Shown here piece after piece: positions 4,800 through 46,548 of a DNA stretch of 51,988 nucleotides. Within the stretch, counting starts at the first letter, position 1, and each line of letters begins with the position of its first letter. The stretch lies in assembly GCA_002009975.1 (NCBI GenBank), contig MTLP01000028.1, positions 56,546-108,533 of the forward strand. Reading direction: 5' to 3'. The stretch comes from Thermococcus sp. JdFR-02. Lineage in GTDB: Archaea > Methanobacteriota_B > Thermococci > Thermococcales > Thermococcaceae. A program made the translations under genes and the position numbers. Below the pieces are notes generated by a model. It was not told the origin of the DNA. It saw nothing but the letters and a program-made list of their open reading frames with translations, and did no database searches.

Positions 4800-4855
4800 C
4801 AATATAGAAAGAGTTTTAACCACTAAAATGATATCCTATGTTGGAGGGAGTTAAT

Positions 4856-5425
4856 GTGGAGTACAAGGAACCTTTTGGAGTTAAACTCGACTTTGATAGT
4901 GGCATCATTGAGAAAGCTAAGAAAATCGTTAGAAGACTAAGCGATATGAAAGGCTATTATGTCAACGAGGAAGCATACGAAGAGCTTTTAAAGGAGAATC
5001 CAGTGATTTACGAAGTTTATGCAATTGAGCAGGAGGAAAAGGAAGGCGACTTAAACTTTGCGACAACTGTGTTACATCCGGGTAAAGTTGGCAATGAGTT
5101 CTTTATGACCAAAGGTCATTATCACGCGAAATTGGACAGGGCAGAAATTTATGTAGGGCTTAAAGGGAAGGGTGGAATGCTTTTACAGACACCAGAAGGG
5201 GAAGCAAGATGGATTGAAATGGAAGAAGGAACAATCGTTTATGTTCCACCATACTGGGCACATAGGACAATAAATATTGGGAAGGAACCATTTATATTCC
5301 TAGCTATTTATCCAGCAGATGCTGGTCACGACTATGGAACAATAGCAGAGAAAGGCTTTTCAAAGATTGTGGTGGAAGAAGAAAATAGAATCGTCGTGAA
5401 AGACAATCCAAAATGGAAGGATTGA
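4856..5425 (+). CDS. pgiA: Phosphoglucose isomerase, cupin type
   Basis: The enzyme interconverts glucose-6-phosphate and fructose-6-phosphate in the modified Embden-Meyerhof pathway of Thermococcales. An upstream ATG at 4838 is in frame, but the GTG at 4856 follows a strong GGAGGGAG (4843-4850) by five bases. With that start the protein is 189 residues, the same as the Pyrococcus furiosus enzyme. The cupin metal ligands then fall at His88, His90, Glu97 and His136 (GHYHAKLDRAEIY and YWAHRTIN), the same numbers as in that enzyme. The gene follows a candidate glycolytic-regulator site and precedes ADP-glucokinase. Confidence 0.95.
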   Translation: MEYKEPFGVKLDFDSGIIEKAKKIVRRLSDMKGYYVNEEAYEELLKENPVIYEVYAIEQEEKEGDLNFATTVLHPGKVGNEFFMTKGHYHAKLDRAEIYVGLKGKGGMLLQTPEGEARWIEMEEGTIVYVPPYWAHRTINIGKEPFIFLAIYPADAGHDYGTIAEKGFSKIVVEEENRIVVKDNPKWKD

Positions 5426-5475
5426 ATTTTCTTTGATTTTATTTAATAATCTTCGTTTAATTTAAATCTTTCTAG

Positions 5476-6888
<1,413 letters not shown>

Positions 6889-6909
6889 CTCTTTTTTAAT
6901 TTATTTTTA
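6889..6909 (+). terminator. T-rich tract after ADP-glucokinase
   Basis: Runs of T (CTTTTTT, then TTTATTTTT) directly follow the glucokinase stop. Oligo-T tracts without a hairpin are the usual archaeal termination signal. It separates this gene from the mannosylglycerate operon, which has its own TATA element. Confidence 0.5.
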
Positions 6910-6918
6910 ATATGGATA

Positions 6919-7022
6919 AATTTTATATACGTCAATTGCCTAAAATACTATTGGTCAATTTTATGCCCCCTTGGTGGCTTAGCTGAGTTGAATAAAATTC
7001 TAATTCATTTGGAGGTGATGTT
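6919..7022 (+). promoter_or_regulatory. Promoter and leader of the mannosylglycerate operon
   Basis: A TATA element TTTATATA (6922-6929) would start transcription near 6950, leaving a leader of about 70 bases before mpgS, with a strong GGAGGTGAT just before its ATG. The element GTCAATT occurs twice, at 6931-6937 and 6955-6961. The leader contains a seven-codon ORF (ATG 6963 to TGA 6986; MPPWWLS). Confidence 0.55.
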
Positions 7023-8207
7023 ATGCTTTTAGAGGCTCCTGTTTATAAAGAACTCTTTGGAGCGGTTGAAATATATGAGGTTCAAAAGGTGATAAAGCTT
7101 GATACAGAAACTGAAGATATTCACAGTTTCACAGTTAAGAATTTGCCCAGGGGTGATATATATAAAACCCTTGGAGAGATGGCGATTGTTGTTCCAATGA
7201 AAAATGAGAAGCTACAGCTTGTTGATGGTGTTTTAAAAGCAATCCCTCATAAATGTCCAATCATAATTGTTTCAAGCAGCAAAAGAGAGGGTCCAAACTT
7301 GTTTAAACAAGAAGTCGACTTAGTGAAGCACTTTTACAACTTAACGCACTCAAAGATAATTATGATTCATCAAAAGGATATTGGATTAGCAAAAGCCTTC
7401 AAAGAAGTAGGTTACACGGATATTTTAGATAGTAGTGGTAACATTAGAAGTGGAAAAGGGGAAGGTATGTTAATTGGTATTCTCTTAGCTAAAGCTATAG
7501 GTGCAAAGTATGTTGGATTTGTTGATGCCGACAACTACATTCCGGGAGCTGTCAATGAGTACGTTAAAGACTATGCTGCTGGCTTTTTAATGAGTGAAAG
7601 CGATTATGCAATGGTACGCCTAAGCTGGCGTCACAAACCAAAAGTAGGTAAGAGAGGATTGTATTTCAGAAAATGGGGAAGAGTTAGTGAAATAACCAAC
7701 CGCTACATGAACATGCTTCTTGGGGAGGGTACAAACTTTGAAACGAACATAATTGTAACAGGGAATGCTGGGGAGCATGCAATGACAACAAAATTAGCTG
7801 AAATACTACCTTTCTCCACTGGTTACTCTATTGAGCCTTTTGAACTTGTTTATTTATTTGAGAGATTTGGACGCTGGGAGAACGTTGAGGAGTATCAAGA
7901 TATTTATGACCAAGGAATTGAAGTCTTCCAGATTGAAACCTTGAATCCGCACTTGCATGAAGAAAAGGGTCAGGAACATGTTAAAGACATGATACTAATG
8001 TCATTGGCGACGATTTATCACTCAAAGCTGGCATCTGAACGCTTAAGGCAAAGAATCCTTGATGATCTTAAAATGCATGGAATCTTGGGAGATGATGAAG
8101 AGCCAAAGAAGCCCATTGTAATGAGAGCAATTAAGGATATAGACGTTGAGAAATGGATAAAAGTTCTTGAGAACAACTCTGAGTCGTTGTTAAAGTTTGA
8201 GCTATAA
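7023..8207 (+). CDS. mpgS: Mannosyl-3-phosphoglycerate synthase
   Basis: It joins mannose from GDP-mannose to 3-phosphoglycerate, giving mannosyl-3-phosphoglycerate, the precursor of the compatible solute mannosylglycerate. The protein is 394 residues, the length of the P. horikoshii enzyme (family GT55), and shares its characteristic segments: [32 protein letters not shown] and the nucleotide-sugar motif [11 protein letters not shown] near residue 170. ATG 7023 follows GGAGGTGAT. It is the first gene of a four-gene operon. Confidence 0.97.
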
Positions 8208-8216
8208 GGTGTTAGC

Positions 8217-8951
8217 ATGAAAGTGATTTTCCTTGATTTGGACAAGACTTTGATTGGTGAAGATTATTCACCAGAACCAGCAAAGCCGATAATTGAAAAG
8301 CTAAAAAAGCTTGAGTTTAAAATAATTTTTAACTCATCAAAGACAAGGGCTGAGCAGGAATACTACAGAGAAGCATTAAATATTAAGGAGCCATTCATAG
8401 TTGAGAACGGAAGTGCAGTTTACATACCAAAGGATTATTTTCCATTTAACTTTAAATTTACGAGAGAGGATGCAGATTACTACATTATAGAGCTTGGTGA
8501 AAGGTATCCGGTTATTAAGGAAACTTTAGACAAGATCAGTGAAGATTTTGGGCTTAAATATTATGGGAATTCAAGCATTGAGGAAGTCATGAAATTTACA
8601 AATCTTCCAAGAAAACTTGCCAGACTTGCCATGATAAGAGAATACTCAGAAACCATATTTAAATGGGAAAAAGAAGGATTTGAGAGAGCTTTAGAGAGAA
8701 ATGGTTTAAAAGTTGTAAAAGGAAGCAGGTTTTACAATGTAACGGGAAAAACAGATAAAGGAAAAGCTACTAAGATTGTCCTAAGCTTGTACTCCAAAAT
8801 TGGAGAAGTTGAGAGCTATGCTGTTGGGGATGGTTTAAATGATGTTCCAATGCTCGATGCTGTTGACTTCGCTTTCATTGTTGGAGATCTAAAACATCCG
8901 AATGCTAAAAATATAAGATCGATAAAAGAAATCTTGGAGGTGATGGAATGA
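8217..8951 (+). CDS. mpgP: Mannosyl-3-phosphoglycerate phosphatase
   Basis: This HAD-superfamily phosphatase removes the phosphate from mannosyl-3-phosphoglycerate to give mannosylglycerate. The 244-residue protein has the nucleophile motif DLDKTL at residues 6-11, the second motif FNSSKTRAE near 39-47, and the metal motif GDGLNDVPML in the last quarter, with a Cof/MPGP-type cap between. It starts nine bases after mpgS and its end overlaps the next gene by four bases, so translation is probably coupled. Confidence 0.95.
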   Translation: MKVIFLDLDKTLIGEDYSPEPAKPIIEKLKKLEFKIIFNSSKTRAEQEYYREALNIKEPFIVENGSAVYIPKDYFPFNFKFTREDADYYIIELGERYPVIKETLDKISEDFGLKYYGNSSIEEVMKFTNLPRKLARLAMIREYSETIFKWEKEGFERALERNGLKVVKGSRFYNVTGKTDKGKATKIVLSLYSKIGEVESYAVGDGLNDVPMLDAVDFAFIVGDLKHPNAKNIRSIKEILEVME

Positions 8952-10315
8952 AAACGCTTATTTTAGCTGGAGGAAAGGGAACTCGATTGTGGCCATTAAG
9001 TAGGGAATTAATGCCAAAACAATTTACAAAAATTTTCGACAGTTATTCCCTCTTTCAAAAGACTGTTGAAAGGGCTTTGCTTTTTTCAAAGCCAAAGGAA
9101 ATTTATGTTGTGACTAATAAGGAGTATAAGTTTAGAGTTTTAGATGACCTTAGGGAAATAGGCATAGAGCTTTCTGAGGAAAACATTCTTTTAGAGCCTG
9201 TTGGTAAAAACACTCTTCCCGCTATTTATTGGGGAATAAAGACTATTCAAGAGGATTATGGAAAATCAAAAGTCGCTGTTTTACCTTCAGATCATTTAAT
9301 AGATGCTAATGAAAATTATATCGAAGCATTTAGCAATGGAGAAAAACTTGCTGGGGAACATCTCGTAACATTTGGAATCAAGCCAACGAAACCTCACACA
9401 GGGTATGGTTATATAAAACCAGGGAAAGCATTAGAGGGTGGATTTAAAGTTGATGAATTTAAAGAGAAGCCAGATTTTGAAACGGCTAAGAAATATGTTG
9501 AAAAAGGCTACTTTTGGAACAGTGGAATGTTCTTATTTGATAGCGAGCTTTTCATAGAAGAAGTGAAAAAATTAGCACCAGAGGTCTACAAGGCATTTGA
9601 AGAGTCAAACACCATTGAAGAAGCATATGAGAAAATTCATGATGTTTCTGTTGATTATGGAATAATGGAAAAGACAAATAAGGCTGCTGTTGTGCCTTTA
9701 GATACTTACTGGAATGACTTGGGAAGTTTTGATGCAATTTATGAAGTTTTCAAGAAAGATGAAAATGGAAATGCAGTTAAGGGGGAACACATAGGAATTG
9801 AGTCCCAAGACAATTTGATAATGACCGAGAGACTGACTGCGACTGTTGGAGTTAAGGATTTGATAATAATTGATACGGGAGATGCTTTATTGGTTGCTCA
9901 AAGGGGAGAGGCACAGAAAGTTAAGAAAGTTTATAATATCCTTAAAGAGAGAAACGACCAAAGAGCAATTGTTCACAGAACAGCTTATAGACCTTGGGGA
10001 AGTTACACTGTTTTAGAAGATGGAGAAGGATATAAAATAAAGCGTATAACAGTTCTGCCAAAGCGCAGATTAAGCTTGCAAAGGCACTACCACAGAAGTG
10101 AACATTGGGTCGTTGTAAGCGGGACTGCTAGAGTTATAGTTGGTGACAAGGAAATCCTCTTGAGACCTGGGGAAAGCACATTTATTCCTGCTGGAGTGAA
10201 GCATAGATTAGAGAATCCTGGGTTGATACCTTTGGAGGTTATAGAAGTTCAAATTGGACAATACTTGGGTGAAGATGACATAGAAAGATTTCAAGATGAC
10301 TTTGGAAGAGACTGA
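8948..10315 (+). CDS. manC: Mannose-1-phosphate guanylyltransferase / mannose-6-phosphate isomerase
   Basis: A bifunctional enzyme of 455 residues that supplies GDP-mannose to mpgS. The N-terminal nucleotidyltransferase domain opens with LILAGGKGTRLWPLSR and PKQF, and has the FKEKPD motif. The C-terminal part (after about 340) is a type II mannose-6-phosphate isomerase cupin with LQRHYHRSEHWVVVSGTA and a second cupin motif PGESTFIPAGVKH. ATG 8948 overlaps the mpgP stop. With phosphoglucose isomerase and phosphomannomutase nearby it links fructose-6-phosphate to GDP-mannose. Confidence 0.96.
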   Translation: MKTLILAGGKGTRLWPLSRELMPKQFTKIFDSYSLFQKTVERALLFSKPKEIYVVTNKEYKFRVLDDLREIGIELSEENILLEPVGKNTLPAIYWGIKTIQEDYGKSKVAVLPSDHLIDANENYIEAFSNGEKLAGEHLVTFGIKPTKPHTGYGYIKPGKALEGGFKVDEFKEKPDFETAKKYVEKGYFWNSGMFLFDSELFIEEVKKLAPEVYKAFEESNTIEEAYEKIHDVSVDYGIMEKTNKAAVVPLDTYWNDLGSFDAIYEVFKKDENGNAVKGEHIGIESQDNLIMTERLTATVGVKDLIIIDTGDALLVAQRGEAQKVKKVYNILKERNDQRAIVHRTAYRPWGSYTVLEDGEGYKIKRITVLPKRRLSLQRHYHRSEHWVVVSGTARVIVGDKEILLRPGESTFIPAGVKHRLENPGLIPLEVIEVQIGQYLGEDDIERFQDDFGRD

Positions 10316-10338
10316 GCTTTAAATGTGAGGTGATTAAA

Positions 10339-11712
10339 ATGGGAAAGCTCTTTGGAACGTTTGGCGTTAGAGGAATTGCAAACGAAAAAATTACTCCAGA
10401 ATTTGCATTAAAAATAGGAATGGCATTTGGGACTTTACTAAAGAAAGAGCAACCAAACAAAGAGCTTTGGGTTGTCGTTGGGAGAGATACGAGAGTTAGC
10501 GGTGAAATGCTCAAAAACGCCTTAGTTTCTGGACTTTTAAGCGTTGGAGTTAACGTTATAGATGTTGGAGTTGCTCCAACACCAGCGATTCAATTTGCGT
10601 GTAGATACTTTAACGTAGATGGAGGAGCTGTAATTACAGCATCCCATAATCCTCCAGAATACAATGGGATTAAGCTTTTAGAATCAAATGGATTGGGCTT
10701 AAAAAAGGAGAGGGAAGCAATAGTTGAGGAAATTTACTTTAAGGAAGATTTTGATAGAGCAACCTGGGACAAGATTGGTCAGTTAGTTGAGCGCGACATA
10801 ATAAGACCTTATATTGATGAAATAAAGTCAAGGGTAGATATTGAAGCAATTAAAAAGAGAAAGCCTTTCATTGTAGTTGATACTTCAAATGGAGCTGGTT
10901 CATTAACTTTACCTTATCTTTTGAGAGAGCTTGGATGTAAGGTTGTAAGCGTAAATGCTCATCCAGATGGTCACTTCCCTGCAAGAAATCCAGAGCCAAA
11001 TGAGGAAAATCTCAGAGGATTTATGAAAATGGTGAAAGCGTTAGGGGCAGATTTTGGTGTTGCTCAAGATGGAGATGCTGATCGTTCAGTGTTTATTGAT
11101 GAGAACGGGAACTTTGTTCAAGGAGACAAAACTTTTGCTTTGGTTGTTAAAGCAATGCTTCAGGAACATGATGGTGGTTTGGTCGTTACAACAATAGCGA
11201 CTTCTCACATGATTGACGAGATAGCCAGACAATATGGCGGAAAAGTTATGAAAACAAAGGTTGGTGACCTAATAGTCTCAAGGGCTTTACTTGAGCACAA
11301 TGGTTTAGTTGGTGGGGAAGAAAACGGTGGAGTTATCTTCCCAGACTTCGTTTTGGGAAGGGATGGTGCAATGACCGTGGCAAAGATTGTTGAAATATTT
11401 GCAAAGAGCAACAAAAGGTTCAGCGAACTTATTGATGAACTTCCTAAGTTCTATCAAGTGAAAACAAAGAGGCACATTGAAGGTGATAGAAAAGCAATAG
11501 TTGCGAAAGTAGCAGAGATTGCTAAGGAGAGAGGATTAAACATTAACACAACAGATGGAACAAAAATACTCTTTGATGATGGTTGGGTTCTCGTCAGGGC
11601 GAGCGGAACGGAGCCAATAATAAGGATTTTTGCAGAAGCAAGGAGCGAAGAGAAATCCAAAGAGTACTTAGACTTGGGATTAGAACTTTTGGATGAGGCT
11701 TTGAAGAGCTAA
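10339..11712 (+). CDS. manB: Phosphomannomutase / phosphoglucomutase
   Basis: It interconverts mannose-6-phosphate and mannose-1-phosphate, the substrate of manC. The 457-residue alpha-D-phosphohexomutase has the phosphoserine loop TASHNPPEYNG, the metal motif DGDADRS, the sugar-binding GGEENGG and the phosphate-binding RASGTEPIIRI near the end. A GTG at 10330 is in frame, but ATG 10339 is placed correctly behind GAGGTGAT. It closes the mannosylglycerate operon. Members of this family often use glucose or glucosamine phosphates too. Confidence 0.95.
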   Translation: MGKLFGTFGVRGIANEKITPEFALKIGMAFGTLLKKEQPNKELWVVVGRDTRVSGEMLKNALVSGLLSVGVNVIDVGVAPTPAIQFACRYFNVDGGAVITASHNPPEYNGIKLLESNGLGLKKEREAIVEEIYFKEDFDRATWDKIGQLVERDIIRPYIDEIKSRVDIEAIKKRKPFIVVDTSNGAGSLTLPYLLRELGCKVVSVNAHPDGHFPARNPEPNEENLRGFMKMVKALGADFGVAQDGDADRSVFIDENGNFVQGDKTFALVVKAMLQEHDGGLVVTTIATSHMIDEIARQYGGKVMKTKVGDLIVSRALLEHNGLVGGEENGGVIFPDFVLGRDGAMTVAKIVEIFAKSNKRFSELIDELPKFYQVKTKRHIEGDRKAIVAKVAEIAKERGLNINTTDGTKILFDDGWVLVRASGTEPIIRIFAEARSEEKSKEYLDLGLELLDEALKS

Positions 11713-18258: not shown

Positions 18259-19122
18259 TTATCCTAGCTTTGCTTTCATTCCAATGAGATAGAAAAGCAA
18301 TTTTGCTCCAGTTAAAGCGGTTATATCACCAAGTTCTGTTCCAGCAACTTCCATTATGTCAATTCCAGCAATTTTCTTATTTTTGATAAGCCATTCTAAA
18401 GCTTCAATTACTTCCCAAAAGCTTAAACCTCCAGCTTCTGGTGTTCCAGTACTTGGAACCATTGAAAGGTCGAAGACATCTATATCAATTGACAAGTAGA
18501 TAGGCTCTGGGAGGTCTTTAACTATTTCAATAAACTTGCCAACATTGTAATCTCTTGCATGAATCCAGTGAATCTTTTTCTCTTTGGCGTATTCAACTTC
18601 TTCTTTTATACCGCTCCTAATTCCAAATTCTGCTATTTCAATTCCAAGCTCTGAAACTCTCCTCGCTATACAAGCATGATCCCATTTTTCCTCTTGATAT
18701 GTATCCCTTAAATCTAAATGGGCATCAAAAACGACGTAGCTCTTTGGATTTAGAGCTTTAACTGGTGGATAAGTCATTAAGTGCTCCCCACCCAAGATTA
18801 TAGGTAAAGCGTTTGGATTGGCTTCTTTTAACTCTTCAACCGTTGCAATTCCCCTCTTTATAGTTTCTAGCGGATTTCCTGCAACGATATCTAAGTCTCC
18901 AATGTCTGCTATTTTTAAATCAGCTAAATCAACATCATAGTCTAAAATATAGCTCTCCAAATTTATCGTTGCTTGCCTTATTAGCGTTGGTCCAAATCTT
19001 GCTCCAGGTTTATATGAAGTAGTTGAATCAAAAGGAATACCTAAAATGACGAAGTCAGCTTTTTCAACATCTACTAATGGCAATGCAGTTTTTATGGTTT
19101 CGTATGTGTAGAAGAATTCCAT
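18259..19122 (-). CDS. speB: Agmatinase-family ureohydrolase
   Basis: A 287-residue member of the arginase/agmatinase family with the di-manganese motifs GGEHLMTYP, DAHLDLRD and SIDIDVFDLS. These enzymes remove urea from agmatine in polyamine synthesis. In Thermococcus kodakarensis the homologue acts on N1-aminopropylagmatine, and that may apply here. A GTG three codons upstream (19131) is in frame, but ATG 19122 is preferred because GGTGG lies before it. Convergent with the CLC gene, eight bases between the stops. Confidence 0.9.
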   Translation of the reverse strand: MEFFYTYETIKTALPLVDVEKADFVILGIPFDSTTSYKPGARFGPTLIRQATINLESYILDYDVDLADLKIADIGDLDIVAGNPLETIKRGIATVEELKEANPNALPIILGGEHLMTYPPVKALNPKSYVVFDAHLDLRDTYQEEKWDHACIARRVSELGIEIAEFGIRSGIKEEVEYAKEKKIHWIHARDYNVGKFIEIVKDLPEPIYLSIDIDVFDLSMVPSTGTPEAGGLSFWEVIEALEWLIKNKKIAGIDIMEVAGTELGDITALTGAKLLFYLIGMKAKLG

Positions 19123-19220
19123 TCTCACCACCTAAAGAGGATTTGGTATTTAAGTTATAAGATTTACGAGATTGTTGTTTTTCAAATGTCCATATATGAA
19201 CAACTGTGAACTTTCCCATA

Positions 19221-19260
19221 ACATTTATATATTTCTTCTACACTTTGTAGGTATAGTGTA
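19221..19260 (+). promoter_or_regulatory. Promoter and palindromic operator of the sugar uptake operon
   Basis: A TATA element TTTATATA (19224-19231) would start transcription near 19255. Over that point lies the dyad TACACT (19239-19244) N10 AGTGTA (19255-19260), perfect over six bases per arm. A second looser dyad, GTTGTT (19174-19179) with AACAAC (19199-19204), is upstream. The operon encodes a TrmB paralogue, the obvious candidate to bind here; TrmB of the trehalose/maltose operon also binds over its core promoter. Confidence 0.55.
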
Positions 19261-19284
19261 CTAAAAATACAATAGGTGTTGGAC

Positions 19285-20643
19285 ATGAAGAAAAAAGCCG
19301 CGTTTGGAATTTTGTTGTTAGGTGTTTTTGTTTTTGGAGTAATGGCAAGTGGTTGTTTGCAAAAGCAGGGAACTACAACTACCCCTACTGAGAGCAAAGC
19401 AGAGGAAACAAAAGAAGAAATTAAGATTGTTGAACTTGAATTTTGGCATGGAATTGAAGCTCCAGAAAACCAAAAGGTGTTAGAAGAGCTTGTTAAGAGG
19501 TTTGAGGAAACTCATCCAAATATTAAGATAAAGATTGTTAACTATGGCGCTCAAGATAAGGCAGTGCCAAAGATAATGTCTGCTGTTCAAGCTGGGACTC
19601 CACCTGACTTAGTTTGGCTTAACCCAGCACAAACAGGCTTCTTCGCTGAAGCTGGAGTTTTGGCACCAGTTGAAGATTTTATAAAAAATGATCCATCATT
19701 TAACAAGGATGACGTATACGAAGGTCTTTGGGAACTTGGAACCTATAAAGGTAAAATTTACACTGCACCTTTTGACACTAACAACTTAGCTATTTATTAT
19801 AACAAAGAGCTATTCAAGGAAGCGGGGCTCGATCCAGAGGCTTATATGGGCAAAGCATTAACATGGGAAGAATTTAGGGAATTAGCAAAGAAGCTTACAA
19901 AGGATAAAGATGGGGATGGAAAGATTGATCAATATGGCTTTATGGTCCCATTTGGAAGGTTAGAATGGACAGTTTGGACATGGGAGGTCTTCTTATGGTC
20001 AGCTGGTGGTGAGTTATTGACAGAAGATCAAAGCAAACCAATATTTGCAAGTGAAGCTGGGATAAAAGCTCTTCAATATTGGGTTGATTTAGTTTATAAG
20101 GACAAAGTTGCGAAGTTAAGTGAAGCAAACGCAGGCTATAAGTTAGATGACTTCTTTGCTGGAAGAGTAGCTATGATGATTAATGGTCCATGGAATTTCC
20201 CAGTTCTTAAGAGTGAAGGATGGCTGGAGAAGACAGGGGTAATGTTAATGCCTTATGACAAGAGAATTGCCACAAACATTGGTGGAGAAAACTTGTTCAT
20301 TTTCAAGACAACTCCTGAAAGAGAAAAAGCTGCTTGGGAGTTTGCTAAGTTTGTTATGAGTCCAGAGTTCCAAGTTCCATGGGCATTAAAAACTGGTTAC
20401 TTGCCAGTCTGTAAGAGTGCTTTAGAGAATCCAGAATACAAAAAGTTCCTAGAGGAGAACGTGTTCATTAAAATATATGTCGAGAATCTTCAATATGGTA
20501 AAGCAAGACCTCCAGTTCCCCAATACCCCGAGATGTCAGCGGCAATTGGACAAGCTATTGAAGCCGCACTGTTGCAAAAGAAAGACCCAGAAACTGCTTT
20601 AAAAGAAGCTCAAACAAAAATTGAAGAATTGTTTAAGTCTTGA
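19285..20643 (+). CDS. Sugar ABC transporter substrate-binding lipoprotein (MalE-like)
   Basis: A 452-residue extracellular binding protein. The N-terminus is a lipoprotein signal peptide ending in a lipobox (FGVMASGC, Cys near residue 24), then a Thr/Glu-rich linker and a family 1 solute-binding domain (LEFWHGIEAPENQKVLEELV, residues after about 50; GTPPDLVWL; PFDTNNLAIYYNKELF). An acidic DKDGDGKID loop may bind calcium. The sugar is not known. A GTG at 19276 is in frame, but ATG 19285 has AGGTG upstream. First gene of a six-gene operon. Confidence 0.92.
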   Translation: MKKKAAFGILLLGVFVFGVMASGCLQKQGTTTTPTESKAEETKEEIKIVELEFWHGIEAPENQKVLEELVKRFEETHPNIKIKIVNYGAQDKAVPKIMSAVQAGTPPDLVWLNPAQTGFFAEAGVLAPVEDFIKNDPSFNKDDVYEGLWELGTYKGKIYTAPFDTNNLAIYYNKELFKEAGLDPEAYMGKALTWEEFRELAKKLTKDKDGDGKIDQYGFMVPFGRLEWTVWTWEVFLWSAGGELLTEDQSKPIFASEAGIKALQYWVDLVYKDKVAKLSEANAGYKLDDFFAGRVAMMINGPWNFPVLKSEGWLEKTGVMLMPYDKRIATNIGGENLFIFKTTPEREKAAWEFAKFVMSPEFQVPWALKTGYLPVCKSALENPEYKKFLEENVFIKIYVENLQYGKARPPVPQYPEMSAAIGQAIEAALLQKKDPETALKEAQTKIEELFKS

Positions 20644-20645
20644 CA

Positions 20646-20662
20646 TTTTTATTTTTATTTTT
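20646..20662 (+). terminator. Intra-operon T tract between binding protein and permeases
   Basis: Three runs of five T separated by single A residues lie directly after the binding-protein stop, before the GGAGGTGA of the first permease. Such tracts cause partial termination in archaea and would give more binding protein than permease. Confidence 0.45.
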
Positions 20663-20674
20663 GGAGGTGAGGAA

Positions 20675-21559
20675 ATGAGAGCATTTCCTAATAGAGAGCT
20701 GAGACATAACCTTGAAGCTTACACTTTTCTTGCACCTGCTTTAACTATCATGATCATCTTCTTAGCTTACCCAGTTCTGAACCTATTTTACATAAGCTTT
20801 TTTGATTGGAGAGGATTAGGAGCTAGGCATTTCGTCTTCCTTGATAATTATAAGATGCTTTTACGAAATGAGGAGTTTAGATTAGTTTTTAAAAACACCC
20901 TTATCTATATTCTTGGAGTAGTTCCAACCACGATGGTTTTCTCACTTTTTGCAGCTGTTTTGTTAAATTCAAAAATTAAGCTTAGGGGATTTTATAGGAC
21001 TTCAATTTTTTCTCCTACTGCAATATCATTTGTAGCAACTGGTATCATCTGGGTTTGGATGTTTAACTTAGATTATGGGCTTGTTAATAGAGTTTTGAAT
21101 GCTTTAGGTTTTTCAGTAATAGACTGGCTTAGAAGCACACCTTGGGCAATGGTTGCTGTTATAATAGCCACTGTTTGGGCAAGAGTTGGCTACTTTATGG
21201 TAATATACTTAGCAGGACTTCAAACCATTCCAGAGGATTATTACGAAGCATCGGATATTGATGGAGCTAATTCACTTCAAAAATTCCTTCATGTAACACT
21301 ACCATTGCTAAAGCCAACCCACGTTTTAGTTCTTGTCATGCTCACAATTTTTTCATTTAGAGACTTTGATCAGATTTACACAATGACAGGGGGCGGACCT
21401 TTGATGTCAACAACAACCTTAGCTTATTATATTTATGTGCTGAGCTTTGAGCGGTTTAGATTCTCCCAAGGAGCTACAGTAGCCGTTATTTTACTCTTCC
21501 TTGTAATATTAGTACAGTATTTACAGAGGAAAGTGTTTGGAGAGGAGGCAATTTACTGA
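20675..21559 (+). CDS. Sugar ABC transporter permease (MalF-like)
   Basis: A 294-residue membrane protein with six predicted helices and the ATPase-coupling EAA loop EDYYEASDIDGANSLQKFLH followed by VTLPLLKP. This is the MalF/UgpA type. Reading can extend upstream to 20621, but the ATG at 20675 stands behind a perfect GGAGGTGA and gives the expected short basic N-terminus. It pairs with the next gene. Confidence 0.93.
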   Translation: MRAFPNRELRHNLEAYTFLAPALTIMIIFLAYPVLNLFYISFFDWRGLGARHFVFLDNYKMLLRNEEFRLVFKNTLIYILGVVPTTMVFSLFAAVLLNSKIKLRGFYRTSIFSPTAISFVATGIIWVWMFNLDYGLVNRVLNALGFSVIDWLRSTPWAMVAVIIATVWARVGYFMVIYLAGLQTIPEDYYEASDIDGANSLQKFLHVTLPLLKPTHVLVLVMLTIFSFRDFDQIYTMTGGGPLMSTTTLAYYIYVLSFERFRFSQGATVAVILLFLVILVQYLQRKVFGEEAIY

Positions 21560-21568
21560 GGTGATAAA

Positions 21569-22399
21569 ATGAAGGTTAAGACAAGGAAATTTACCTTAAA
21601 AAGCTTAGCAATTCATGTATCAACTTGGGTTTTTATAATCATCATTATAGTACCTATCCTTTGGACTTTCTTTACATCACTTAAAACTCCCGTAGAAATA
21701 GCCAAGGGAACGATTTTACCTGAAGCTTGGAAATGGGAAAACTATAGATTAGCTTGGGAACAGGCAGAGTTTCCAAGAAAATTTTTAAACAGTTTTATAG
21801 TGGCTATAACAGTTACCTTGGGTCAAATAGTTACTTCTGCAATGGCTGGTTATGCATTGGCAAGAATGGAATTTAAAGGGAGAGAGTTAATATTCAGCAT
21901 AGCTATTGCGTCAATGCTGATCTCTGAGCAAATAATAATTGTTCCCCTTTATGTTTTATTAGCAAAGCTTGGATGGATAGACAGCTACAAAGGATTAATG
22001 ATTCCTTGGTTTTTCAATGGCTTTGGTGTTTTCTTATTTAGGCAGTTCTTTCTCACGATTCCAAAAGATATAGAAGAAGCAGCAATAGTTGATGGGGCAT
22101 CACGCTTTAGAATACTTTGGCAAGTTATGTTACCTCTAGCAACTCCAGCAGTTTTGACGCTTTTCATGTTCACATTTATAGCAGAATGGAATTCCCTTTT
22201 CAAGTGGCTTATCTTGATAAAATCTCCTGAAATGAGGAACGTGCAGCTTGGCTTAACTCTCTTTCAAGAGCAATTCATTGCTCAATACAATCTCTTAACA
22301 GCTGCAACAATAATTGTTTCTCTACCATCAGTCATACTCTTTCTAATCGGTCAAAGATACTACATCAAGGGTATTGCAATGAGCGGAGTAAAGGGGTGA
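21569..22399 (+). CDS. Sugar ABC transporter permease (MalG-like)
   Basis: A 276-residue membrane protein with six helices and the EAA loop IPKDIEEAAIVDGASRFRI followed by MLPLATPA. This is the MalG/UgpE type, the partner of the preceding permease. ATG 21569 follows GAGGTGAT, nine bases after the previous stop. No ABC ATPase is encoded in this operon, so a MalK-type subunit must come from elsewhere in the genome. Confidence 0.93.
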   Translation: MKVKTRKFTLKSLAIHVSTWVFIIIIIVPILWTFFTSLKTPVEIAKGTILPEAWKWENYRLAWEQAEFPRKFLNSFIVAITVTLGQIVTSAMAGYALARMEFKGRELIFSIAIASMLISEQIIIVPLYVLLAKLGWIDSYKGLMIPWFFNGFGVFLFRQFFLTIPKDIEEAAIVDGASRFRILWQVMLPLATPAVLTLFMFTFIAEWNSLFKWLILIKSPEMRNVQLGLTLFQEQFIAQYNLLTAATIIVSLPSVILFLIGQRYYIKGIAMSGVKG

Positions 22400-22403
22400 T
22401 AAC

Positions 22404-23606
22404 ATGAGAATAGCCATGATAACTCCACATGGAGACCCATTAGGGAAGCTGGGGGAACCAGATACTGGAGGACAATGTGTTTATGTTAAGGAGTTGAGCA
22501 AGCATTTAGGGAAGCTTGGAGCTGAAGTAGATATTTTCACAAGACAAAGAGGTGGAAGAAGGGAAATAGAACAAATAAGCGAAAATGTTAGAGTTATTAG
22601 GATTGAGTGCGGACCGGAGGGATTTATTCCAAAGGAAAAGTTGATGCCATATTTACCAGAGTTTACTGAAAAAGTCGCTGACTATGTCGAAAAAAGACAG
22701 TATGACATAATTCACACCCACTACTGGGACGGTGGCTTTGTTGGGCTGAAGCTTAAAGAGCGCTTTAGGGTTAAACTGGTACACACTTCCCATTCTCTCG
22801 GAGTTTTAAAAGCTAAAGCTCTGGGAAACTTTGAGCCTTATAAAGAGAGGATTGCTCTTGAAAAAGAAATTTATGGGAAGAGTGATGCGATAATTGCAAC
22901 AACGAAGATTGAAAAGAATGACATAGCAACGCTTTATGGAATAGATGAAAGTAAAATTTATGTAATCCCCATAGGAGTTGATACAACTTTTTATAAGCCA
23001 ATGGGAACCAAAGGCAAACTCAAAAAAGATCTTAACCTGCCACAAATTCCATTGGTCTTTGCATTAGCAAGACTTGATCCAAGAAAGGGTCTTGACCTTC
23101 TTATAAAAAGCGTTCCTTATATTAAGAAACACTACAATGGAGACTTTTTAGTATTGATCAGCACTGGCACGGGAGCTAAGGAAGAGGAGAAGGAGATGAA
23201 CAAGCTTTTAACACTAATAAGAGAGCTAGATGTGGAGAAAGAGATTAAGATAATACCAGCAATTAAGCCAATAGACCTTGTGCCGAAATACTACTCAGCG
23301 GCAGATGTATTTGTTCTTCCATCCCCCTATGAACCCTTTGGAATAGTTATGCTTGAAGCAATGGCGTGCAAAGCTCCAATGGTTGCAACGAAGTTTGGAG
23401 GACCAGCAGAAGTGATCCAAGATGGCTATGATGGCTTTTTAGTTGATCCAAAGGATTCTGGGGAAATGGGCAAAAAGATTGCAGAGCTTTTAAGAGATGA
23501 TAAGAAAAGAGAGCTTTTTGCAGAAAGAGCATATAAAAAGGTCATGGAAAAATACTCATGGAGCAGTGTTGCAAAAGAAGTGTTAAGTCTGTTCAGGGGT
23601 CTTTAG
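22404..23606 (+). CDS. GT4 glycosyltransferase, sucrose-synthase/sucrose-phosphate-synthase type
   Basis: A 400-residue retaining GT-B glycosyltransferase. The N-terminal loop EPDTGGQCVYVKEL (residues about 18-31) and HTHYWDGGFVG, HTSHSLG match sucrose synthase, sucrose-phosphate synthase and mannosylfructose-phosphate synthase. The C-terminal domain has ARLDPRKGLDLL and the nucleotide-sugar motif EPFGIVMLEAMA (E-x7-E). It is not TreT, which lacks the DTGGQ opening. Placed between permeases and a sugar kinase, it may split an imported disaccharide with NDP, or make one; the sequence does not settle which. Confidence 0.85.
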   Translation: MRIAMITPHGDPLGKLGEPDTGGQCVYVKELSKHLGKLGAEVDIFTRQRGGRREIEQISENVRVIRIECGPEGFIPKEKLMPYLPEFTEKVADYVEKRQYDIIHTHYWDGGFVGLKLKERFRVKLVHTSHSLGVLKAKALGNFEPYKERIALEKEIYGKSDAIIATTKIEKNDIATLYGIDESKIYVIPIGVDTTFYKPMGTKGKLKKDLNLPQIPLVFALARLDPRKGLDLLIKSVPYIKKHYNGDFLVLISTGTGAKEEEKEMNKLLTLIRELDVEKEIKIIPAIKPIDLVPKYYSAADVFVLPSPYEPFGIVMLEAMACKAPMVATKFGGPAEVIQDGYDGFLVDPKDSGEMGKKIAELLRDDKKRELFAERAYKKVMEKYSWSSVAKEVLSLFRGL

Positions 23607-23617
23607 GGGGGATTTTA

Positions 23618-24478
23618 TTGATAGATGTACTTTCAATAGGTGAAGTGCTTGTAGACTTAAAAATCATTGACGGAAAGATAAGCGTGCATAGTGGAGGGTC
23701 TTGTCTCAACGTTGCTTTCTATTCAGCACAGCTTGGAGCAAGATCATCTTTTATTGGGACGGTGGGCGATGACTTTCTTGGGAGGTACATAACAAAAGAG
23801 CTTGAAAGCTTGGATTTTAAAATCCCCCTTTCAGTTATTAACCAAAACACCACATTAGTTCTCATAAAGTCTGAAAAAGAAAAGCTTGAACCCTTAATTT
23901 ACAGGGGAGCCGATAGGTTCATAACAGAGGAGCAAATAGTTGAAAGCTGGAAAGATGCAAGAATCGTTCATACTTCAGCTTTTGCCCTTTCACTCAATCC
24001 AAGCAAGGAAGCAATTTTAAATGCATTAAAGCAGGCAAAGGAGAATGGTTCTCTAATTTCAGTTGATCCTAATTATAGAAAGGATATCTGGAAAAGATGG
24101 GGAGCTGACGAGAGGGCACTTTTAGAGGCTATTTCAATAGCCGATATTGTTAAGCCTTCAATAGAAGACGCAAAAGAGCTCTTAGGAATAAGGGATCCAA
24201 TGAAAGCTTTAAAGATTTTTAAGGGGCTTGGTGCTAAAAACGTTATATTAAGCATGGGTGCGAAAGGGGTTATTGCATTAACTGAAGACGACAGGCTTAT
24301 TAATATATCGAGCAAAAGGGTTAATGTCGTGGATCCAACTGGTGCTGGAGATTCACTCCTGGGTACAATATTAGCAAAGTTTTCAAGGGGTTATGATATA
24401 GAAGAAGCAATAGAAGTTGGCACAGAAGTTGCGGCTAAAGTTGTCAGCACAGAAGGTACGCTAGTTAAGGTGGTATAG
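23618..24478 (+). CDS. PfkB-family sugar kinase
   Basis: A ribokinase-fold kinase of about 286 residues. GEVLVDL and the glycine-rich SGGSCLNVAFYSAQLGA lie near the start, and the C-terminal signature VDPTGAGDSLLGTIL holds the catalytic Asp. Reading frame is open back to 23558, inside the glycosyltransferase, but a TTG at 23618 is five bases after GGGGGGAT and leaves the usual family N-terminus (LIDVLSIGEVLVDL), so it is chosen. Related to fructokinases and ribokinases; the substrate is likely a monosaccharide released by the preceding enzyme. Confidence 0.87.
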   Translation: MIDVLSIGEVLVDLKIIDGKISVHSGGSCLNVAFYSAQLGARSSFIGTVGDDFLGRYITKELESLDFKIPLSVINQNTTLVLIKSEKEKLEPLIYRGADRFITEEQIVESWKDARIVHTSAFALSLNPSKEAILNALKQAKENGSLISVDPNYRKDIWKRWGADERALLEAISIADIVKPSIEDAKELLGIRDPMKALKIFKGLGAKNVILSMGAKGVIALTEDDRLINISSKRVNVVDPTGAGDSLLGTILAKFSRGYDIEEAIEVGTEVAAKVVSTEGTLVKVV

Positions 24479-25480
24479 ATGGAAAGGTTGCTTGAGAAAT
24501 TCAAAGAATTCGGCTTTACCAAATATGAAGCCTTGGCTTATCTTACTCTTTTAGCCTATGGATCTCTAACTGCAAGAGGAATTTCAAAGAGAGCTCAAAT
24601 ACCATACAATAGAACTTACGATGTTCTAGCTTCCTTAATTGAAAAAGGCTTTGTTCAAGAGCTTGAGGGCAAATCAAGGACATTTATAGCTGTTGAGCCA
24701 GATGTTGCTTTTCATAGGTATTCCAAGGCATTAGAGCAGCTTAAAGAGGAAGTTAAAAGAGCAGCTGAAAACTTAAGAGTTGAGGAAAGGGAATATGCTA
24801 TTTGGAGGTTTTCTTCTCCAGAAGAAGTTCTTATAAGCCTGAAGAACATGATGAAGAATACTACCTTTGAGTTTACACTTTTAGCTCCAAACAATTTCTT
24901 GTTTCAAATAACGGACGAATTAAAGGAGCTTTTGAAAAGAGGGGTAACGCTTTCTGTTTACACTGATGAAGATGTGGAGCTTGGATTAGGTGGAAACATT
25001 TTTGTTAGGATTACAGATAAAACGGGGCATATAATAGCTTTAAGTGATATAAAAGAGGTTTTGGTTTCTCCAAGCTTGGCTTTTGAGGTTGGAAGTGAAC
25101 TACCTTCTGGTTTTAAGTCTAACTTTCCGGAGATACTTTTCTCCTATTACATTTATATTAGGGATGTCTTTAACTCTTCAAAGCTCTTAGATTTCAATGT
25201 AGAAAGCTTCAATGAAAAAGAACTCCGCTTTGTAGTGTGCTATCATATAACCCAGATTCTTGAGAAGTTCTTCAACAAAGGATTTGATGTTAAAGCTGAA
25301 ATCCATACAACAACGGGGAATATTTTGGAGGGGAATGTGGTGGGGTTCATTGACAACAAAGTGGTAAACAACTTCTCTTTGGATATAAATGGAACAAAAG
25401 TCACTGTTGGGGGTCCATTTTCGATTATTGAAGAGTATGAAGAAGAAGGGACTATCCTTTACCCACAAAAGAGAACATAA
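24479..25480 (+). CDS. TrmB-family sugar-responsive transcription regulator
   Basis: A 333-residue protein with an N-terminal winged helix (FGFTKYEALAYLTLLAYG, then IPYNRTYDVLASLIEKGFV, residues about 12-62), a coiled helix (70-100) and the TrmB sugar-binding C-terminal domain, ending FSIIEEYEEEGTI. Length and layout match TrmB (about 338 residues), the repressor of the trehalose/maltose operon in T. litoralis and P. furiosus. The ATG follows the kinase stop directly. It probably regulates this operon through the dyad before the first gene. Confidence 0.92.
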   Translation: MERLLEKFKEFGFTKYEALAYLTLLAYGSLTARGISKRAQIPYNRTYDVLASLIEKGFVQELEGKSRTFIAVEPDVAFHRYSKALEQLKEEVKRAAENLRVEEREYAIWRFSSPEEVLISLKNMMKNTTFEFTLLAPNNFLFQITDELKELLKRGVTLSVYTDEDVELGLGGNIFVRITDKTGHIIALSDIKEVLVSPSLAFEVGSELPSGFKSNFPEILFSYYIYIRDVFNSSKLLDFNVESFNEKELRFVVCYHITQILEKFFNKGFDVKAEIHTTTGNILEGNVVGFIDNKVVNNFSLDINGTKVTVGGPFSIIEEYEEEGTILYPQKRT

Positions 25481-25489
25481 GGAAGAAAG

Positions 25490-25900
25490 CTACTCTCCCT
25501 TTGTCTTCATGATTTTAATTCTTCCAAGGGTTTCCCAGTATTCTACGTTTATCCCCTCTGTTATCTTATCCTTGATTTCATCGGCAACTCCGCTTTCTAT
25601 TGGAACATCAAATATCTCATAGGTTTCCATATCCATTAGTTGCACTGTATCTGGTGTAATTGCAATAATTTGTCCAGTTCTTTTGTCGATGATTGGAACA
25701 TCAACTTCAGCGCTTGTTGGCTTAACTATGCTCCTTGTCTTTTTGTCAAATATTCCAACGGCATCAATTCTTGCCTTTGCTGAACCGTGCTTACCTGGGG
25801 AAGAAATGGAGATGTTGACTATTCTGCATGGCTCACCATCAATAATAATGTACCTACCAACTTTAAGCTTTCCAACTACAGCTCTTGTTTTGTCTCCCAT
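25490..25900 (-). CDS. eif5a: Translation initiation factor aIF5A
   Basis: The 136-residue archaeal homologue of eIF5A, which helps ribosomes through difficult peptide bonds. The loop [14 protein letters not shown] holds the lysine that is changed to (deoxy)hypusine (first K, in GKHG). An SH3-like domain and an OB domain follow, ending [14 protein letters not shown] two codons upstream (25906) is in frame, but ATG 25900 follows GGAGGTTTGA. The leader contains an imperfect hairpin at 25916-25932. Confidence 0.96.
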
Positions 25901-25979
25901 ATTCAAACCTCCATAAGCGCTCTAAGAGTGCTTCGATATAGTTCTTTAAAAAATTTTTGAAGGAGTGTTTGGGTATTTT

Positions 25980-40960: not shown

Positions 40961-43900
40961 CTATGCTACACGATAGAATCCATCTTTTGGCATATAAACC
41001 ATTCCATCAGTCATCAATCTTTCAATAATTTTTCTCGCCTCACTTCTATGAATGTTATACCTCTCAGCTTCTTTAAGAATTTCGTCTATAGGTGCTCCAT
41101 TTTCAGTGAAGTTTTCTAACTCTTTAATGATCTCCAATATCCTATCGATCTTATTTATCTGCCTTGAGGATTTGCCCACTTCAAGGATTGAAATGTCTAA
41201 GAATCCTTCTTCATCCATTGCGACTTGCTTTAACGTGTATTCAATTAGCCTTATTGCATCCTGAGCATCTTCCCTCGTTACAACCTCACTTAAACGCATC
41301 CTTGCTCTAGCTTCGCTTAGCCTTATTAATGCCTCTAATTGACGGGGTGTTATGGGTATTGGCTTTACTCCTTCTTCATTTCCACTTCTTATCTTTCTCC
41401 TCATCTTCACATAGTAATGCAGAATCTCATCCATTGCTTCTCTGCTCAATACTGGATGAATATTCTTCCTAGCGTAGGCAATGTATTTTTTGAGCAAGTC
41501 ATAGGGGATTTTAGGTGCTACTGCCTCTGCTTCTCCCCTTCTAACCTTTAGAATATGCCTGGCTATTTCAGAGTCTAACCTTTCATTTGGCTCGTCAATT
41601 AGGACAAATATTAAATCAAATCTGCTTAAAAGGGTTGGAGGTAAATCGAGTTGTTCTGGTAAAGGCTTGAGCTTATTGAATCTTCCATACTTTGGATTTG
41701 CAGCTGCAATAACGGTTGTTCTTGAATTTAGAGTTGCTGTAATACCTGCCTTGGAGATGCTAACACTTTGCTGCTCAAGTGCTTCATGTATGGCACTCCT
41801 ATCTTTATCGCTCATTTTGTCGAACTCATCAATACAATTATGGACTATTATACCCTCTGCAACAAAATTGTGAAATTCTGGAACGTACAAGTCATATACA
41901 TAACCATCGTAAGGAACTTCCTCTATACTGATAATTTCATCGAGGAAGTAATCTCTATTAGCTAGAGCTTTAAGCAGATTTAATGTATGAACGTCAAGAT
42001 GTATTGAAAGTTTCTCAAGTAGTTTCTTTATTTGAATTCTACTTGGGGGATATCTTTCATTTGCATAAGCGTATAGCGTACTCCATAATCCCTCCTTTTG
42101 AAGTATAGTTGAAGGCACACTCCTTATGATCCTTCTTGCTATTTTTGCAACAATTTTTGAAGGAACTTTGTCGCTGGAAGATGAAACTTTATGCTTCTTG
42201 ATTGGTAAGTCCTTAACTTTTACACTATATTGCTTAATGGCTTTTATTAGATTTTCAATGTCCTCTCTCCCTGTAATTCTTATTCTATTAACACTTTTAC
42301 TCCTAATTAGTTGTGAATAAATATCAAACCTTCTTAGTGCAAGCATGAATGCTTTGTCTTTTTCTTCATCATTAGAAAGCAGAAATTCAACATGGACAAC
42401 TTGATACTCTTTTTTACCATTATTCGAGGTTTTTATTGAAATACATCCGTCAGAGTCTAATGTTCCAGCTATGAAAGCTTTTAGTGCCTCATCATCAAGT
42501 TTAAAGAGATTTTCAAAGTTATTTTGAATTAGATATTTGTATAGGTATACTAGAAGTTGTGAGTCAATATGGAAAATAATATTCTCACTTTCGATATTTT
42601 GTTCATTAATCTTGTTCTTTGTCCTTCTTTTATATTCTTTAAGATCTCCTTCATAAAACGTGGAGAATACGCTTTTTATAGCTTCTATTTGCTTCTTGTG
42701 AGCGGTAGATTGAACAATGAATATGGTCGCCCTTCTTTTACTTTCTTGGATCCATCCATCTCCATAAACAAAGCCTAAAAAGTAAGCGAGTTCAGGTGTT
42801 ATCGTTGCAACTTTAAGTTTATCTCCCCTAAACTTCCTTCCAAAGGCTAAAGGTCTTTCTTTCCATTTTTCATAAATTCCTAAGTCCTTTAAAATCTGTT
42901 TAAAGGTTTTGACGCTCATTTGGCTTCTTCCTGAAAGAACATCCTTCGAAATATTGTATTTTCTATTAAACTCTGCTAAGTTTTTAAACTTCCTTAAAAT
43001 TTCAATCTTAAGTTCCTCTTTTTCTTCTTTTGTAAGCATGACCTTCCAATTATCTGGAATGATATCAAGGATGTATGTCTTTTCTTTAATGCTTGGTAGT
43101 TTAAGAGGAGCAACAATCTTATCTCCAGCTTTAAATTTCTGAGCTTCTTTCCATTCTAAAGTCTCACCATCAATTAACAGGTGGTCTGGTGTTAGGGTTA
43201 TTTCATTACCCGATTTAAACTTAATTTTCAAAAGTTCCCCTTTCCAATGTTTTCTTCTTAATATCGTTGCTTTGGTTTTTGTTGTTTTTATATCTCTTAG
43301 AGAGAGGGAAATAACATCTTCACTTATTTCTTGGATATCCACTATCTCATCTTTTGTTTTTGCTTTATAGGATTGTGAGAGATCAAACAGCTCTTTAATC
43401 CTTACATATTTGTTATTCACTAAAACTCTTGAATCTGGATGAAGACATGCGATTCCTCCATCTGCTAAAACCAAAACACCAGCTTCTAGGACCCAAGAGC
43501 CTGTTAGCTCATCGCGTACAGCTGCTGCAGTCAAACCGGCTGCTGAGCTAGACTTGCCACTTGTATAAATTGCTCTCGGAGCTAAGTTGGCGATATAACG
43601 TAAAAGCTGGCTATTATGAACAAAAATGTCATTGGCAATGAAGTTGTGATGTTCTGGAACTTGGAGATCATAAACCCACTTGTCTTTTGGTGTATAAACT
43701 TTAATTTCTTCAATTTCGTCCCATAAGATATCTGAATTAGCGAGGAGCTTTAAAAGTTCTATTTTTTTCTTAATATTTTCATTAGTTCCTCTGTTACTTG
43801 CAGCTTCTTCGAATGTTTCAGCTATTATCATGAGGTTCTTTCTACTTGGTCTTCTATCGTTTCTTTCATAGTGAAGGTAAGTTGAACGATTTATACCAAC

Positions 43901-46054: not shown

Positions 46055-46548
46055 CACTCCTCACCAAGCCAGGATATTCTAATTTTTGACATCTTTAAGT
46101 AGAGTTCTCTCTCCTTTGGGGCAAGTCTGCTAAGAATCTCTAAGCTATTTGGTCTGAGCATGACGGCTTTTAAAATTTTGTTAAAACGTATCCTTTTTAA
46201 ATCGTCATACTTGCTTTTTAAATTGCTTAGCTTTGCTAAATATGCCTTTAATGCTTCTGGAGATAGATATTGAGGATTTTCAAGGATCCTATTCAGGTAA
46301 TAAATGTAAAACTCAGCTCTATCGTAGAGAGTCTCATCGATATCAACTAGAGGTCTGTTATCTTTTTCGTCACCAATTGCTTTATCAAGTTCAATAATTA
46401 TTTTCTCAACCTCATCAATAATTTCAACTATTCCACTTTCAAAGAGTTCCTTGGCTTTCCAGTCTTCCATGAGAACCATATCTCCTGGTTTCCATTCTCC
46501 AAATGCCTTCAAAATCTTTACAGGTATTACAGCTCTCCCCATAAACAT
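46054..46548 (-). CDS. gins23: GINS complex subunit, Gins23 type
   Basis: GINS joins MCM and Cdc45/GAN at the replication fork. The protein is 164 residues. A small beta domain comes first (AVIPVKILKAFGEWKPGDMV then LFESGIVEII, residues 5-45), followed by a long helical domain (YIYYLNRILENPQYL to the end). This B-A order is that of Gins23; Gins51 has the reverse. The ATG at 46548 follows AAAGGTGAG; a GTG three codons upstream is in frame. The stop overlaps the MCM start. Naming depends on the domain order I read. Confidence 0.82.
   Translation of the reverse strand: MFMGRAVIPVKILKAFGEWKPGDMVLMEDWKAKELFESGIVEIIDEVEKIIIELDKAIGDEKDNRPLVDIDETLYDRAEFYIYYLNRILENPQYLSPEALKAYLAKLSNLKSKYDDLKRIRFNKILKAVMLRPNSLEILSRLAPKERELYLKMSKIRISWLGEE

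Follow-up and report, generated by a model that had tools for sequence, protein, structure and literature searches.

A six-gene operon at 19285–25480 of a 51,988-nucleotide stretch of DNA from Thermococcus sp. JdFR-02 (contig MTLP01000028.1; the whole stretch is hereafter the window), which sits in a 2.36 Mb Thermococcaceae draft genome, encodes a sugar importer, a family 4 glycosyltransferase (GT4) with an acceptor site of the sucrose-phosphate synthase (SPS) type, a PfkB sugar kinase and a paralogue of the regulator TrmB. Our tentative reading of this operon is that a glucosyl disaccharide is imported, phosphorylated by the kinase and then cleaved in a nucleoside diphosphate (NDP)-dependent reaction by the SPS-type GT4 running in reverse. 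The original prediction for this locus, which regarded the GT4 as sucrose synthase (SuSy)-like, was right in outline and wrong in the type of enzyme: import, an NDP-driven split and a kinase are retained here, and its sequence of GT4 first and kinase second is disfavoured by the SPS-type site. The operon and its operator, the linkage of GT4 to PfkB, the acceptor residues and the conservation of the TrmB paralogue are seen in the sequence; the proposed substrate, nucleotide, direction and order of steps are inferred.

The six genes are co-directional on the plus strand with intergenic gaps of 0–34 bases, and all the open reading frames described in the original prediction were found in place. 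They encode a lipoprotein sugar-binding protein of the SBP_bac_1/8 type (19285–20643), a MalF-like permease (20675–21559; its start is probably near 20675, and the listed frame runs from 20621) and a MalG-like permease (21569–22399), both with BPD_transp_1 domains, the GT4 (22404–23606; Glycos_transf_1/Glyco_transf_4), the PfkB kinase (23618–24478) and the TrmB paralogue (24479–25480; TrmB and Regulator_TrmB). The kinase gene probably starts at the TTG at 23618, with GGGGGG upstream, rather than at 23558. The same gene order recurs in four other genomes with 78–88% identity for the binding protein, both permeases and the GT4, indicating that the arrangement is more than chance. Orthologues of the binding protein are confined to 5 of 94 Thermococcaceae genomes, and the sugar-uptake operon is mobile.

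The GT4 has about 400 residues and consists of the GT-B core alone. Its motifs DTGGQ (residues 20–24) and EPFGIVMLE (310–318), on which the original prediction drew, are present and invariant in nine archaeal orthologues. The best solved relatives are the SPS of T. elongatus (TeSPS), MshA and the SPS of H. orenii (HoSPS), and identity to the SPS proteins of Thermosynechococcus (Tll1590) and Halothermothrix orenii reaches 32–34%. A Foldseek search with a GT4 model of moderate confidence (predicted local distance difference test, pLDDT, 81) ranked TeSPS, MshA, HoSPS and GlgM above SuSy. TeSPS uses Arg105 and Arg178 to coordinate the phosphate group of its sucrose-6-phosphate ligand; its Gln51 and Ala48 are in contact with the fructosyl unit, Gln51 by binding the hydroxyls, and His158 and Glu331 are essential (PMC7264703). 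Alignments placed K77, R149, Q24, T21, H130 and E310 of the GT4 at Arg105, Arg178, Gln51, Ala48, His158 and Glu331, respectively, and all of these but T21 conform to the SPS residue set. K77 and R149 are unchanged in the 9 archaeal and 9 bacterial orthologues aligned, and both columns are basic (Lys or Arg) in the SPS and MshA references. In contrast, the two SuSy references (PDB 3s27 and 4rbn) carry Gln at the R149 column and HALE (HALEKTKY) in place of HSLG, whereas MshA has GGM, with Met at the Q24 column, where the GT4 clade has GGQ. Considering the SPS-type K77/R149 pair, HSLG and Q24, the GT4 appears to be built for a phosphorylated acceptor, which is probably a ketose phosphate.

Profile hidden Markov models (HMMs) from NCBIfam gave the highest GT4 score for MshA (TIGR03449, 257 bits, cut-off 462.5); the scores for SPS (TIGR02472) and SuSy (TIGR02470) were 197.7 bits (cut-off 576) and 109 bits (cut-off 810), respectively. 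Because it falls below every curated cut-off tested, the GT4 is not filed as SPS, SuSy, TreT or MshA. The SuSy identity was rejected on the residues described above, the missing SuSy N-terminal (SSN) domains and the HMM score. The TreT identity was likewise rejected, as PF21269, the TreT N-terminal domain, is not among the Pfam matches of the GT4, though the same library detected it in bacterial TreT; the earlier claim that another GT4 stands in the place of TreT holds. In a quick maximum-likelihood tree, which has SH-aLRT supports only and some long branches, the GT4 forms its own clade with orthologues from Bipolaricaulota and Marinimicrobia (support 90). This clade lies in the region of HoSPS, SuSy and fusions of SPS with a haloacid dehalogenase (HAD) domain, apart from MshA/TeSPS and from TreT, and the SPS proteins themselves are split. 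The phylogeny that had been proposed as a check thus places the GT4 in the superclade of SPS, SuSy and MshA and not with lipid transferases.

GT4 orthologues (79–87% identical) were found in 9 of 94 Thermococcaceae genomes, scattered across four of six genera, and nowhere else among 115 genomes of the phylum searched. These nine genomes, and no others of those searched, also carry a PfkB orthologue (Fisher p ~1e-12, uncorrected for phylogeny), and no report of the GT4–PfkB pair was found in the open-licence literature searched. Three layouts are seen among the nine. Type A (the window, G075, G073, G027 and G020) has the order binding protein, MalF, MalG, GT4, PfkB and TrmB, with MalK directly after TrmB in all except the window. 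Type B (G002, G076 and G080, and also the fragments L028 and L029) uses another importer, which has a MalK of its own, followed by GT4–PfkB; the cluster also includes a glycoside hydrolase family 65 (GH65) protein, a HAD protein of the beta-phosphoglucomutase (beta-PGM) type and a divergent TrmB-family gene. Type C (G001) consists of GT4–PfkB–TrmB without an importer. These layouts, in which the importer sets are unrelated, indicate that the GT4–PfkB pair is constant and the importer exchangeable. The operons of the window, G076 and G080 share a chromosomal site between agmatinase and eIF5A (18259–25906 in the window; loci L019, L020, L049 and L050), and this common site of type A and type B suggests that the importer module was exchanged in place. 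The segment 22404–24478 is mosaic: the GT4 of the window groups with those of type B (87% identity to G002), unlike its binding protein, PfkB and TrmB, which match type A. Fragment L028 is filed under an Actinomycetota metagenome-assembled genome and carries the Thermococcales type B cluster, which is probably a binning error.

The absence of malK, as claimed in the original prediction, is true beside the operon and was rejected for the genome. The closest malK lies in the maltodextrin operon on another contig (C10), and its product is 77–81% identical to the type A MalKs, which explains the missing local gene. This situation mirrors the reported relation of mdxK and malK (PMC4158304).

The catabolic genes around the pair in relatives bear on the proposed route. 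In type B clusters the beta-PGM-type HAD stands beside a GH65 with EEAPYR at its six specificity positions, the kojibiose phosphorylase signature being EEAPxx (PMC8537180), and a glycoside hydrolase family 130 (GH130) protein of the beta-mannoside-phosphorylase type occurs in two type B loci, L020 and L048. The bacterial loci L042 and L027 contain a GH65 with DQGQWE, near the trehalose-6-phosphate phosphorylase motif DQGQDE, adjoining a beta-PGM-type HAD that in L042 is fused to a trehalose-phosphatase (OtsB) domain. Further genes of these clusters encode TreT (L042) and a GalT-like protein (L027). In 2014, Jung and colleagues reportedly described a pathway for kojibiose catabolism in Pyrococcus sp. 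ST04 (cited in PMC8537180). These GH65, GH130 and TreT-type neighbours make the import of a disaccharide followed by non-hydrolytic cleavage a recurring theme, and the trehalose-phosphate genes in bacteria keep glucose-6-phosphate as a candidate acceptor. Glucosylsucrose, an alpha-1,2-glucosylated sucrose, is made in cyanobacteria (PMC9909042), and one could speculate that a kojibiose-type phosphorylase trims it to sucrose. The co-occurrence of GalT-like genes (PF01087) was discarded as a sign of NDP-glucose phosphorolysis, since the difference (7/9 versus 31/85, p ~0.02) is phylogenetically confounded. As a separate observation, GH130 proteins resembling beta-1,2-mannobiose phosphorylase, that of L020 bearing an N-terminal membrane anchor, and a glycogen-debranching-like protein adjoin the type B clusters at L020 6857–7894 and L048 3606–6444.

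The PfkB kinase (PF00294, 167 bits) has an intact DPNYRKDIW motif and the catalytic GAGD within DPTGAGDS. Its nearest solved structure is H. orenii fructokinase (139 bits), and it stays under all curated family cut-offs, including that of fructokinase PRK09434 (135 bits, cut-off 450) and of the best NCBIfam model, which is IolC-type (140 bits); its predicted structure is poor (pLDDT 61). Most readable loci of Bipolaricaulota and Marinimicrobia have an unrelated P-loop kinase after the orthologous GT4, and an ATP-binding cassette (ABC) sugar importer usually comes next. This kinase is weakly uridine-kinase-like, with T. thermophilus uridine kinase as its best PDB match, and the kinase domain of Ruminococcus gnavus AgaSK, which adds a phosphate to C6 of the fructosyl unit of sucrose, was modelled on that same uridine kinase (PMC7688924). 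The combination of ABC import, a sucrose kinase and an enzyme splitting sucrose-6F-phosphate (S6FP) is a known logic (PMC6521584). A search for the AgaSK sucrose-kinase domain through plasmids gave nothing useful. Both the PfkB and the uridine-kinase-like classes are known to phosphorylate primary hydroxyls of furanosides, for example nucleosides. This shared activity and the AgaSK template make a kinase acting on an intact fructofuranoside plausible. Together with a GT4 site that seems to ask for a phosphorylated sugar, this plausibility leads us to prefer the order of import, phosphorylation and splitting, in which phosphorylation of the disaccharide ahead of the GT4 step is more likely than kinase action following that step.

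The regulator contains the PF01978 (helix-turn-helix) and PF11495 (sugar-binding) domains and scores 246 bits against the TrmB equivalog NF040851 (cut-off 600), which marks it as a paralogue. P. furiosus TrmB holds the glucosyl unit of maltose or sucrose through Asn305, Gly320, Met321, Val324, Ile325 and Glu326, and in the case of maltose the reducing glucose is touched by Ser229 (PMC4158304). The counterparts in the paralogue are N297, G312, P313, I316, I317 and E318, with I225 at Ser229, and N297, G312, P313, I316, E318 and I225 are invariant across six orthologues of the paralogue. The TrmB assignment of the original prediction is thus borne out by retained glucosyl-binding residues, and their retention with the loss of Ser229 favours, at the level of the sequence, an inducer with a glucosyl unit linked to something besides maltose-type glucose.

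A TATA box (TTTATATA, 19224–19231, plus strand), which aligns with TATA elements upstream of the type A relatives, precedes the operon, and a TrmB-type operator (TACTAAAAATA, 19259–19269, plus strand) lies just downstream of it. This operator is one base off TACTN3AGTA, the known TrmB site (PMC4158304). An exact TACTN3AGTA is present upstream of the operon in five relatives (G075, G073, G027, G020 and G001), and in each 15-kb locus it was found solely before this operon. Four of the five have the site no more than about 40 bases from the first start codon, and in G001 it is approximately 280 bases upstream of the GT4 gene; no exact site was found in the three type B loci. In a palindrome search of the window alone, the relaxed operator was no better than chance, and support for the operator comes from the exact sites in relatives rather than from that search. 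The conserved operator supports TrmB-type regulation of the operon, and the gene families and their order support the proposed design of importer, GT4 and TrmB after the trehalose/maltose (TM) operon.

No phosphatase gene was found in the nine operons, and PF05116, the sucrose-phosphate phosphatase (SPP/S6PP) family, has no match in the whole genome, while 12 of 14 control genomes match. Since a phosphatase would be required to make a free disaccharide, this absence counts against synthesis, and together with the importer, the induction and the catabolic partners it favours breakdown; synthesis is less likely. Another HAD phosphatase, such as the mannosyl-3-phosphoglycerate phosphatase at 8217–8951, could substitute for SPP.

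In the proposed pathway, the binding protein and the two permeases would import a non-reducing disaccharide that ends in a glucosyl unit and is most likely a fructofuranoside, for example sucrose, with an importer ATPase borrowed in this genome from the maltodextrin system. PfkB would then phosphorylate the furanosyl primary hydroxyl of the intact disaccharide to give an ester resembling sucrose-6F-phosphate, and the SPS-type GT4, working backwards, would move the glucosyl unit to NDP, yielding NDP-glucose and a hexose-6-phosphate (fructose-6-phosphate) that enters glycolysis. The NDP-dependent cleavage would repay the ATP cost. The TrmB paralogue would repress through the operator over the transcription start until a glucosyl-containing inducer binds. 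With a little more reserve still, a previously undescribed disaccharide route may be common to Thermococcales and Bipolaricaulota/Marinimicrobia, in which a dedicated kinase, of the PfkB type in archaea and of the P-loop type in bacteria, and a reverse SPS-type GT4 let one ATP activate both halves.

Several alternatives were weighed against this pathway. In the order of the original prediction, the GT4 would act like SuSy and cleave the unphosphorylated disaccharide with NDP, leaving the released ketose to PfkB as a conventional fructokinase; this draws on the DTGGQ and EPFG motifs, the top PfkB match to H. orenii fructokinase, the precedent of TreT in the same operon architecture and the nearness of SuSy to the GT4 clade. 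It is unlikely, as the phosphate-binding pair and HSLG are of the SPS type, Gln at the R149 column is peculiar to SuSy, and the SuSy N-terminal domains and HMM score are lacking. A synthetic route, by which an imported ketose is phosphorylated by PfkB, joined by the GT4 to NDP-glucose or NDP-mannose and later dephosphorylated to a compatible solute, would suit the SPS-like site, a mannosylglycerate operon about 8 kb off within the window and an Acidithiobacillus plasmid that groups PfkB with an SPS/HAD fusion. The missing phosphatase and PF05116, the importer, the TrmB-type induction and the catabolic partners in relatives render it improbable. Slightly more doubtful is a trehalose-type pathway, in which trehalose-6-phosphate is the product of the kinase and the GT4 works as a trehalose-6-phosphate synthase in reverse with glucose-6-phosphate as the acceptor: a GT4-family synthase of this kind, Saci_1249, is known (PMC7688234), and the bacterial clusters hold the DQGQ GH65, the OtsB domain and TreT, but the GT4 groups in the quick tree with the ketose enzymes HoSPS and SuSy, which its Q24 and D109 match, and the GH65 of archaeal type B carries EEAP, the kojibiose motif, instead of DQGQ.

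Thermococcales make inositol phosphates, and an MshA-like enzyme whose acceptor is an inositol phosphate or some other phosphorylated polyol, with PfkB being a kinase of the inositol type, would agree with the top HMM scores of both proteins (MshA and IolC-type). This is very improbable, however, as both scores are under the curated cut-offs, MshA has GGM and lies elsewhere in the tree, and the TrmB paralogue retains a glucosyl site. The reading of import, phosphorylation and reverse SPS-type cleavage has points against it as well. Cellular SPS normally runs in the direction of synthesis, and we know of no PfkB kinase that acts on an intact disaccharide; the best PfkB matches, with DPNYRKDIW, are fructokinases. 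Confidence in the GT4 model is no more than moderate at the acceptor loop (pLDDT <50 for residues 19–22), and the enzyme might have inherited its phosphate-binding residues without using them. The likeness of the bacterial kinase to AgaSK comes via a common modelling template instead of direct sequence comparison, and the bacterial clusters carry trehalose-6-phosphate phosphorylase-type GH65 and OtsB.

Compared with known systems, the GT4 shares with SPS the fold, the catalytic His and Glu, the fructose-contacting Gln and both phosphate-coordinating basic residues, and it differs in its separate clade, its score under the SPS cut-off, the lack of an SPP partner and its place beside an importer and a kinase. 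SuSy has in common with it DTGGQ, EAFG/EPFG and, in principle, reversible NDP chemistry, and differs at the R149 and HSLG positions and in its N-terminal domains. The TM operon of T. litoralis and P. furiosus, with TreT and TrmB, likewise combines an importer, a GT4 and TrmB with a TACTN3AGTA-type operator and a MalK related to the maltodextrin MalK, whereas here the GT4 is SPS-type, PfkB is added and the TrmB paralogue has no Ser229 equivalent. R. gnavus, with AgaSK and RgSPP, also imports sucrose, phosphorylates it at C6 of fructose and splits S6FP non-hydrolytically (PMC7688924, PMC6521584), but here an NDP-using GT4 would take the role of the phosphorylase, and in the archaea the kinase is PfkB. 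The kojibiose cluster of Pyrococcus sp. ST04 resembles type B, in which a kojibiose-phosphorylase motif and a beta-PGM-type gene stand beside an importer, GT4 and PfkB, while the window operon has another importer and no phosphorylase. If the proposed pathway is true, hyperthermophiles would put to catabolic use the chemistry of SPS, which is known from biosynthesis, and the unassigned GT4–kinase pair within archaeal kojibiose-type clusters would be accounted for. It would also be an energy-saving sugar pathway in which two unrelated kinases were recruited for one step, and a source of thermostable enzymes to make or split NDP-glucose. The conservation of the GT4–kinase unit between archaea and bacteria adds to the interest of the finding.

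Other genes were recorded along the way. The Acidithiobacillus plasmid (L052) encodes consecutively a major facilitator superfamily transporter, a PfkB kinase, a GH100 invertase-like protein and an SPS/HAD fusion. The region 4838–11712, some 8 kb upstream of the operon for sugar uptake, holds genes named from sequence as a cupin-type glucose-6-phosphate isomerase, an ADP-dependent glucokinase and an apparent mannosylglycerate operon (MPGS, MPGP, manC and manB). At 40961–46057 lies an MCM helicase gene with two apparent inteins, as read from the open reading frame.

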